Shown here piece after piece: positions 1 through 2,036 of a DNA stretch of 64,000 nt (positions are counted from its first letter, which is position 1; the number at the start of each line of letters is the position of its first letter). The translations under genes and the position numbers were made by a program. This DNA comes from Ignavibacteriae bacterium HGW-Ignavibacteriae-1 (GTDB lineage: Bacteria; Bacteroidota; Ignavibacteria; Kapaibacteriales; UBA2268): positions 1-64,000 of the forward strand of contig PGYU01000014.1 in assembly GCA_002839825.1 (NCBI GenBank). Direction: 5' to 3'. Below the pieces are notes generated by a model, which saw only the letters and a program-made list of their open reading frames with translations, was not told where the DNA came from and did no database searches.

Positions 1-547
1 TTATAAGTGAAGAAGCTTTTTCAATCACTTTGACTTTCTCATAAGTGTTTACATCCCAAATATGTATTTCACCACCAACTGGGTATGTCGTTTCAGGTTG
101 CAAACTATAAGCAACTAAAGCAGCAATATAATTCTCCGAAACAGTTATAGAATGGTACCATTTAGCTCTCCATTCCTCATATCCTGCATCTAAGGTATGA
201 AGAAGTGCTCCCGTTTGTGTATCCCACACGTAAAGTGTGTTGCCAGAATCAGCGACAAAGAGTCTCCTGCCGTCTCTTGATATATCAAGCATCTCAACTT
301 GTACATCTCGCTTTACCACCAGTCCCTCATACTCCATAACAATATTGCCTGTCTCCGTCAATAGTTTCATTGGCTTAAATCCAGTTGCCGCCACATAAAT
401 AAATTCACCGTCAGGGCTGAATGTCACCGCACGTACAATTCCCCCAATGTGCTTTTTCCACACCAAAGGGTCGGGTTCAGGCTCTTGAGCCAGTGAGAAA
501 CTGCAATATAACATTGCAACAACGAATAAAACAAATGCTCGTTTCAT
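1..547 (-). CDS. Secreted WD40-like repeat protein, C-terminus cut by window edge
   Basis: The frame opens at ATG 547 and runs without a stop to base 1, so about 182 residues are visible and the C-terminus lies outside the window. It begins with a signal peptide (MKRAFVLFVVAMLYCSFSLA) and then carries beta-propeller-like repeats: 'VRAVTFSPDGEFIYVAA', 'VEMLDISRDGRRLFVAD', 'LYVWDTQTGALLHTL', 'IHIWDVNTYEKVKVI'. The 'S.DG' and '.WD' repeats are typical of WD40 propellers. It is probably an exported protein using the propeller for protein contacts; no enzymatic domain is visible. Lipoprotein status is not supported, since no lipobox cysteine follows the signal peptide. Confidence 0.75.
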   Translation of the reverse strand, partial: MKRAFVLFVVAMLYCSFSLAQEPEPDPLVWKKHIGGIVRAVTFSPDGEFIYVAATGFKPMKLLTETGNIVMEYEGLVVKRDVQVEMLDISRDGRRLFVADSGNTLYVWDTQTGALLHTLDAGYEEWRAKWYHSITVSENYIAALVAYSLQPETTYPVGGEIHIWDVNTYEKVKVIEKASSLI

Positions 548-613
548 AAAAATTCTCCCTGAAATACATGTTCCGTATATAAATACTATGACACATGAAT
601 GCCGAAATTATCT

Positions 614-627: not shown

Positions 628-650
628 AAAGTTGAAATCCCCTCAACCTT
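628..650 (-). terminator. Weak intrinsic terminator overlapping the channel gene stop
   Basis: Read on the minus strand, AAGGTTGA pairs with TCAACTTT (one G-U pair) around the loop GGGGATT, followed by a run of T. The stop codon of the channel gene lies inside the left arm. The stem is short, so strength is uncertain. Confidence 0.35.
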
Positions 651-1407
651 TATTTTGTTCTTCGATTAACTTACGGAGAGCGATGATTTCGGATTTCAGT
701 TCTTCAACTTCCTTCGAGCCGGCAATCGGGGCATCTTTTTCCTGGGCATCACGACCGATGAAATAGCTGGCAAAGGTGGCAGTGACATAACCGAAAATGC
801 TATATCCGAATATGGTGATTAAAAAAGCTAAGGCGCGCCCCTCAGTCGTTATTGGATGAAATTCGTTACCTGCAGTAATCACCCGCATTGCTGTCCACCA
901 CAGCGCAAGCCCATAATTTGTAAATCCGGGGGTCGGGTTTTCCAGAGCATACATTCCGGCGGCACCGGCAAAGATTACTATCAGAGTAATAACTATCACA
1001 TAACCAAGGGCGCGGCGCTTCATGGTTTTGCCCAAGCTACGCATGCTTCTGTTGAACGAAGATACAATACGCACAAGCCTAATTCCCCGAATGCCGCGTA
1101 AAAGCCTAACAAAGCGAAAAACTCGAAATATTCGTAATGCGGGAATAAACAATGATATTGCTGTGAGCCAATTTTTTTTGAGGAAGGAGAGTTTTTCCGG
1201 GGCGAGTGTAATCTTAATCAGGAAATCTATAATAAATATTCCCCATATGCCAAGACTTACGTATTCAAGCGTCTTGTTTATTCCCCAGACCAACTCAATC
1301 ACAAGTAGTACTAACCAAACAAAACCCAATAAAATCATCGGCCCTTCAAGAATTCGCTCTACCGCAGTGAGCAGCCTTATCCGTTCTCTAAAAATTTCTC
1401 TTAACAT
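643..1407 (-). CDS. Voltage-gated-type ion channel (ion_trans family), non-canonical pore
   Basis: A 254-residue six-helix channel of the ion_trans fold. The S4 voltage sensor is striking: arginines at residues 92, 95, 98, 101, 104, 107, 110 and 113, exactly every third position. The pore helix and filter follow at about 168-184, but the filter reads T178-A-G-N-E-F183 instead of the potassium signature TVGYGD or the sodium-channel TLESW type. S6 follows (about 190-215), then a predicted coiled coil at 231-252 (heptads such as VEELKSEIIALRKLI), which could tetramerise the channel as in bacterial sodium channels. Members of this family with T-x-G-x-E pore loops exist in databases as 'ion transporter' as far as I recall; their selectivity is not known to me. 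It stands alone downstream of the minus-strand gap before the tRNA. Confidence 0.85.
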   Translation of the reverse strand: MLREIFRERIRLLTAVERILEGPMILLGFVWLVLLVIELVWGINKTLEYVSLGIWGIFIIDFLIKITLAPEKLSFLKKNWLTAISLFIPALRIFRVFRFVRLLRGIRGIRLVRIVSSFNRSMRSLGKTMKRRALGYVIVITLIVIFAGAAGMYALENPTPGFTNYGLALWWTAMRVITAGNEFHPITTEGRALAFLITIFGYSIFGYVTATFASYFIGRDAQEKDAPIAGSKEVEELKSEIIALRKLIEEQNKG

Positions 1408-1748: not shown

Positions 1749-1825
1749 TGGTACGCCCGAGTGGATTCGAACCACTGGCCCACAGCTTAGAAGGCTGTTG
1801 CTCTATCCTGCTGAGCTACGGGCGC
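1749..1825 (-). tRNA. tRNA-Arg (anticodon TCT)
   Basis: The minus strand folds as a complete tRNA. The acceptor is GCGCCCG paired with CGGGCGT (G-U at 1-72). The D arm is GCTC...GAGC, the anticodon stem ACAGC/GCTGT has loop CTTCTAA giving anticodon TCT, the variable loop is short, and the T arm is AGTGG-TTCGAAT-CCACT. The discriminator is A and the CCA end is encoded (1751-1749). It reads AGA codons. It is divergent from the SRP RNA gene. Confidence 0.97.
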
Positions 1826-1911: not shown

Positions 1912-2008
1912 GGACCAAGTCCTGTGTGGCTAAGACAAGCCCAATTCCGTCAGGTCCGGAAGGAAGCAGCGGTTAGTTTGCTCTTAGGGTGCATCAGTGC
2001 TTGGTCTC
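1912..2008 (+). ncRNA. ffs: Small signal recognition particle RNA (4.5S type)
   Basis: The conserved SRP domain IV core is present: GTCAGGTCCGGAAGGAAGCAGC-like sequence at about 1949-1970, with the asymmetric and symmetric loops that bind Ffh. The 5' end GGACCAAG pairs with the 3' end CTTGGTCT, closing one long hairpin of about 97 nt, and a run of nine T (2009-2017) follows as terminator. The RNA joins Ffh to deliver nascent membrane proteins. It has no Alu domain, so it is the short bacterial form. Confidence 0.95.
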
Positions 2009-2036
2009 TTTTTTTTTATAATATGATAATTTTTCA

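Follow-up and report, generated by a model that had tools for sequence, protein, structure and literature searches.

A prokaryotic clade of six-transmembrane channel proteins with a shortened potassium-type filter and a voltage-sensor-like domain lacking a paddle

The window analyzed here, a 64,000-nucleotide stretch of a contig from Ignavibacteriae bacterium HGW-Ignavibacteriae-1, encodes a 254-residue protein with the helix order of a six-helix voltage-gated-type channel, in which the selectivity filter aligns with that of KcsA with one residue missing. The protein belongs to a widespread and apparently undescribed clade of bacterial and archaeal channel proteins that share this shortened filter. 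On balance, we favor the reading that it is a voltage-sensor-controlled homotetrameric cation channel with a KcsA-like pore and a weakly selective filter.

The gene lies on the reverse strand (Table 1). A sequence-only reading of the window had delimited the same open reading frame without assigning a strand; the forward strand across this interval carries many stops. The translation matches PF00520 (Ion_trans) over S2–S6 with an E value of 2.4e-11 and 43.8 bits, against a curated cut-off of 25. The gene is present in one of the two congeners searched, and comparison with that orthologue indicates purifying selection (dN 0.042, dS 0.31; dN/dS about 0.14 over the whole gene), which rules out a pseudogene. 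A sequencing artefact is likewise ruled out by the 82 homologues described below.

Table 1. Coordinates of the channel gene and of the segments of its product within the window.
Feature	Position	Strand	Basis
Channel gene, 254 aa	643..1407	(-)	ATG at 1407-1405, stop at 645-643; same start in congener orthologue
S1 and S2, residues 22-68	1204..1344	(-)	E38, W55, F58, D61; column counts
S3, residues 71-90, ending at P89	1138..1197	(-)	11-column gap against KvAP-type channels; column counts
S4 ladder R92-R113, 8 Arg, every third residue	1069..1134	(-)	Numbering against alignments; register counts
Shortened selectivity filter T178-A-G-N-E-F-H-P185	853..876	(-)	phmmer, hmmsearch, and MAFFT each align it to KcsA TVGYGDLYP with one residue missing
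S6, residues 190-216, KcsA-like FGYVTAT..A	760..840	(-)	KcsA match; column counts
Putative C-terminal coiled-coil segment, residues 233-253	646..708	(-)	V234, L237, I241, L244, I248 at heptad a/d positions; AF2-predicted helix 231-253

Few motifs in biology are as strongly conserved as potassium-type selectivity filters. The closest pore by sequence is that of KcsA (E 6e-14), with a single gap, located in the filter; phmmer, profile search, and MAFFT all place the same one-residue deletion, setting KcsA TVGYGDLYP against TAG-NEFHP. The window protein has this shorter loop in place of the TxG[YF]GD motif of potassium channels, and GYG is absent from the filter in all 82 members of the family. 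As aligned, a single small polar residue stands where potassium channels have Tyr-Gly. The consensus of the 82 homologues reads T/S - I/M/L/A - G - S/N - D/E - Y/F - W/F/N/H - P, in which no member departs from G180 or P185; Ser occupies position 181 in 70 members and Asn in 10, and position 182 is E in 37, D in 35, A in 4, Q in 4, S in 1, and G in 1. The T-A-G-N-E-F loop reported by the sequence-only reading is present and lies outside every characterized selectivity class. Its description as unlike the potassium type holds as to the missing TVGYGD, but the loop is still of KcsA type, minus one residue. That reading had also named a characterized family with the same filter as the finding that would tell against it; homology searches and searches of the open-access literature found none.

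Homology searches gathered 82 short-filter members (77 without duplicate copies) from Bacteroidota, Pseudomonadota, Acidobacteriota, Cyanobacteriota, Deinococcota, and the archaeal genus Methanosarcina. We define the clade by the filter T/S-x-G-[S/N/T/P]-x-x-x-P together with common ancestry, both of which the window protein shows. Trees that leave out the filter and S4 columns still join all short-filter members into a single clade, apart from the TVGYGD channels, with support of 98/97 (36 rows) and SH-aLRT 99 (77 rows). This phylogeny, which the sequence-only reading had proposed as a check, resolves a single clade beside channels with the normal potassium filter, and the nearest relatives in the tree carry TVGYGD. 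Because every outgroup has GYGD, the simplest history would be one loss of one filter residue. Branches in the broad tree are long, which makes any exact placement of the sister group tentative.

Carriers are found among Bacteroidota, Pseudomonas, Nitrosospira, Acidobacteriota, and Methanosarcina. Their frequency is low in the phylum of the window (2 of 395 genomes, its own included), in that of Nitrosospira (2/349), in that of Methanosarcina (5/197), and in Acidobacteriota (3/199); occurrence is denser among relatives of Pontibacter (31 of 148) and of Nitrosospira (11 of 150). Further members occur in Nostoc, Kovacikia, Gloeothece, and Sinorhizobium and Deinococcus plasmids, where they carry the annotation "ion transporter" or else "potassium channel family protein." No relatives were found in viral contigs, and the open-access literature searched contained no description of such a filter or of paddle-less prokaryotic sensors. 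Broken copies of the channel gene were observed on Nostoc and Deinococcus plasmids (L099, L100, L101), with an IS transposase gene near L099 and L101.

The second distinctive element is the S4 segment. Numbering against the alignments bears out the arginines at 92, 95, 98, 101, 104, 107, 110, and 113, giving a basic residue at every third S4 position, as in voltage sensors. Across the 82 homologues, the 649 basic S4 residues fall into the three phases of this register as 645, 4, and 0, far beyond chance. Measured from a fixed anchor, the span between the residues equivalent to R92 and N119 takes only the values 24, 27, 30, and 33 residues (in 3, 20, 51, and 8 of the 82 rows, respectively), and at least eight length changes are needed on the tree; the turret of the same proteins, an internal control, ranges from 11 to 18 residues and takes all sizes. 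If indel size were random modulo three, the probability that all eight changes were multiples of three would be, by a rough estimate, about 1 in 6,500. The three-residue register and the whole-unit length changes together suggest that selection acts on a ladder of charges that moves past a fixed site. The ladder had been singled out beforehand for its length; its eight gapless arginines stand, but eight is not the family maximum. Ladder slots number 7–10 across the family, the longest gapless runs reach nine, and length is a variable family trait. Additionally, R107 to R113 of the window protein may already belong to the S4–S5 linker, so that eight arginines need not equal eight gating charges.

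The remainder of the S1–S4 domain is mixed in its resemblance to known sensors. An acid is conserved in S1 at E38 (81 of 82 members), as are F58 (81/82) and an acid at D61 (80/82) in S2; mapped onto Kv S2 through the alignment, F58 and D61 would make up the aromatic and acid of a charge-transfer-like center. With these S2 residues kept and a basic residue at every third S4 position, the alignments agree with the sequence-only reading that S4 is probably of the voltage-sensor type. However, an S3 acid and a paddle are usual parts of a working voltage sensor, and both are missing here, which we count against that assignment: column counts show no S3 acid at position 82/83 in any of the 82 members, and only two residues separate P89 from R92, a stretch that in KvAP-type channels contains S3b and a loop (the 11-column gap of Table 1). 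The outer half of S3 and the S3–S4 loop are absent, leaving no S3b–S4 paddle. Short S3–S4 connections also occur in actinobacterial and other TVGYGD relatives, so this trait probably predates the filter change.

Attempts to model the structure with AF2 gave poor results (pLDDT 57 and 69, pTM about 0.35, from alignments of 26 and 25 sequences), and we therefore base no structural claim on them. The model with pLDDT 69 shows weak structural matches to Kv-like channels and NavAb (Z about 7–8; Foldseek, VIA), and one low-confidence model shows S3–S4 as a single helix. The C-terminal coiled coil suggested by the sequence-only reading is plausible, given the heptad pattern, conservation of L244 in 80 of 82 members, and the helix predicted by AF2 (pLDDT about 68–85 over the segment).

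The missing S3 acid and paddle, together with the single low-confidence helix through S3–S4, leave some room for an S4-like segment that does not sense voltage, its arginine helix instead lying at the membrane surface or binding lipid head groups while something other than voltage, for example membrane tension or stress, opens the channel. Some neighboring genes fit such a role, with MscS, CLC, MgtC, a DnaJ/CbpM chaperone, and general stress genes found beside the channel in several genomes. However, no neighbor family was seen more than twice among 52 neighboring proteins; a conserved neighborhood was accordingly rejected as a functional clue, and as no neighbor is conserved, any part played in ionic or envelope stress is guesswork. 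The strict S4 register, its changes in whole three-residue units, and the conserved S2 Phe and Asp of the charge-transfer center further oppose this explanation, which we regard as unlikely though far from negligible.

Selectivity bears on the other half of the favored reading. The KcsA-like pore helix, the W170–W171 cuff, and S6 are all retained, and all nearest relatives are TVGYGD channels; the pore could on this basis still be potassium-selective, if refolding of the shorter loop preserves enough carbonyl sites and S/N plus D/E stand in for Tyr-Gly. Against this, the Tyr-Gly pair that forms the outer sites is reduced to a single residue in 82 of 82 members. Given KcsA geometry, such a loss would remove the outer two ion sites. 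In addition, the position of KcsA E71 is occupied by Met, so its pairing with D80 is lost. These data make potassium selectivity improbable. In 15 of 82 members, apparently the Bacteroidota branch of the window, residue 175 in the pore helix is Arg; it precedes the filter by three residues and could pair with E182.

Position 182 lies immediately external to the conserved glycine and holds an acid (D or E) in 72 of the 82 members; this acid might alternatively act as a ring like the EEEE of Nav and Cav, making the channel sodium- or calcium-preferring. The placement of Glu182 in the pore loop, to which the sequence-only reading had drawn attention, is upheld, and an acid is frequent there; it is not universal, however: the tree requires seven or more replacements by Q, A, S, or G, with the remaining filter positions retained. 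Being replaceable, it cannot alone define selectivity, and the filter may serve some purpose other than binding divalents. The protein also lacks a TLESW-type filter motif, and no BacNav appears among the sequence matches shown, so that preference for sodium or calcium seems quite improbable. A BacNav-type channel as such is ruled out by the absence of that motif and by KcsA as the best pore match. We consider it very improbable that the protein does not conduct and acts instead as a dominant partner of, or a sensor for, ordinary potassium channels in the same cell: genomes with a short-filter channel often also carry KvAP-type TVGYGD channels, but the source genome has no second Ion_trans match, the pore is strongly conserved, and dN/dS is about 0.14 when taken across the entire gene.

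We return to the favored reading of a voltage-controlled, weakly selective cation channel. The family profile reaches the full-length Kv-type channel 6uwm over residues 13–243 (E 5e-15). Six-transmembrane subunits would assemble as a homotetramer, in which an S1–S4 domain with a long gapless arginine ladder and without an S3b paddle would control a KcsA-like pore; the arginine helix would move relative to F58 and D61 with voltage, and S6 would open. In the filter, loss of one residue from the GYG turn would abolish the outer two K+ sites while keeping the inner two, formed by the T178, A179, and G180 carbonyls and the T/S hydroxyl, below a broader mouth lined by a ring of N181 and E182. Na+ and K+ would then pass with little preference, similar in effect to CNG or NaK channels though of separate origin, and divalents may bind or block at the outer acid ring where an acid is present. 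NaK (TVGDGN) is described as having only the inner two sites and as non-selective (PMC9822992). CNGA1 binds Na+ and K+ alike and has an outer Glu site (PMC12375067), the CNG filter confers Ca2+ block in a NaK chimera (PMC5052707), and non-selectivity is seen in KirBac relatives whose loops are altered (PMC4607889).

Comparison with known channels places the family closest to KcsA and the prokaryotic six-transmembrane potassium channels with KcsA-type pores (TVGYGD), with which it shares the pore-helix WW, the S6 FG..TA..A pattern, and the nearest tree branches, and, in the case of the six-transmembrane channels, the overall helix order; the window protein differs from them in its filter, one residue shorter and without Tyr-Gly, and in its longer arginine ladder. 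KvAP and Kv channels share the S1–S6 layout, the basic residue at every third S4 position, and the S2 Phe and acid, whereas the short-filter family lacks their S3b, S3–S4 loop, S3 acid, and GYG filter. CNG (TIGETPPP) and NaK (TVGDGN) likewise combine a potassium-type pore with a reduced filter, and CNG has an outer acid; by analogy, weak selectivity would be expected. In contrast to CNG, however, the acid lies one residue further out, the lineage differs, and conduction by the short-filter family is predicted. The protein ends about 38 residues past S6, with no C-linker or cyclic-nucleotide-binding domain and no such Pfam match, which rules out membership of CNG/HCN. NirBac2.1 of Gemmatimonas aurantiaca (filter TTGTD) has nearly the same filter letters, T-x-G-[S/T]-D, and also derives from a potassium channel; unlike the present family, it is built on a Kir scaffold without S1–S4, and problems with its expression and purification kept its function from being assayed in that paper (PMC4607889). 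The window protein has a six-transmembrane layout rather than a Kir cytoplasmic domain on a two-transmembrane pore, and no Kir Pfam match. BacNav and CavMr (TLESW-type) are also six-transmembrane prokaryotic channels with a filter acid, but their filter and pore sequences are unrelated beyond the superfamily level.

The S1–S4 domain of the family also occurs without the pore. In sister proteins with open frames of 533–650 aa, it is joined to a domain with distant similarity to archaemetzincin (NCBIfam NF033823, E 1.9e-5, far short of its cut-off), after which a further predicted membrane region follows. These fusions occur in Hymenobacteraceae relatives and in G405 (L064, L154–L162), and several genomes hold both fusion and channel. 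Six of the nine fusions carry HxxxHxxGxxH, in which the catalytic Glu is changed to Leu or Met (HLLGHxxGLxH in most). The nine form one group (100/98), and a tree of the voltage-sensor domain only places their S1–S4 among short-filter channels with weak deeper support. This distribution suggests that S1–S4 is an independent module, and the fusions are possibly a new class of voltage-sensor protein. A broader conjecture, which we think rather unlikely to hold, is that S1–S4 is a compact paddle-less voltage sensor, resized by charged three-residue units and joined to different effectors (a non-selective cation pore, and an archaemetzincin-like domain with an altered active site). If true, the paddle-less module would fall outside the known classes of voltage-controlled membrane proteins (channels, proton channels, and phosphatases) and would have a new gating geometry.

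The one-residue-shorter filter has been kept since its single origin across at least six phyla, including archaea, and the clade therefore offers a natural experiment on what a filter needs for conduction and selection. Similarly, the three-residue S4 steps (7, 8, 9, and 10 slots) provide a graded natural series for relating gating charge and travel to ladder length, in a putative sensor without the paddle, a part usually thought important for gating.

Several smaller features flank the channel gene. Just upstream are a tRNA-Arg(tct) gene at 1749–1825 (-) and a small SRP RNA gene at 1913–2009 (+). Downstream, 1–549 (-) holds the start of a secreted WD40-repeat-like protein (as read by eye), partly similar in the congener's locus. 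The intergenic segment 1560–1657 is repeated in the congener's locus at 1289–1402 and 2600–2625, possibly as a small mobile or structural repeat.
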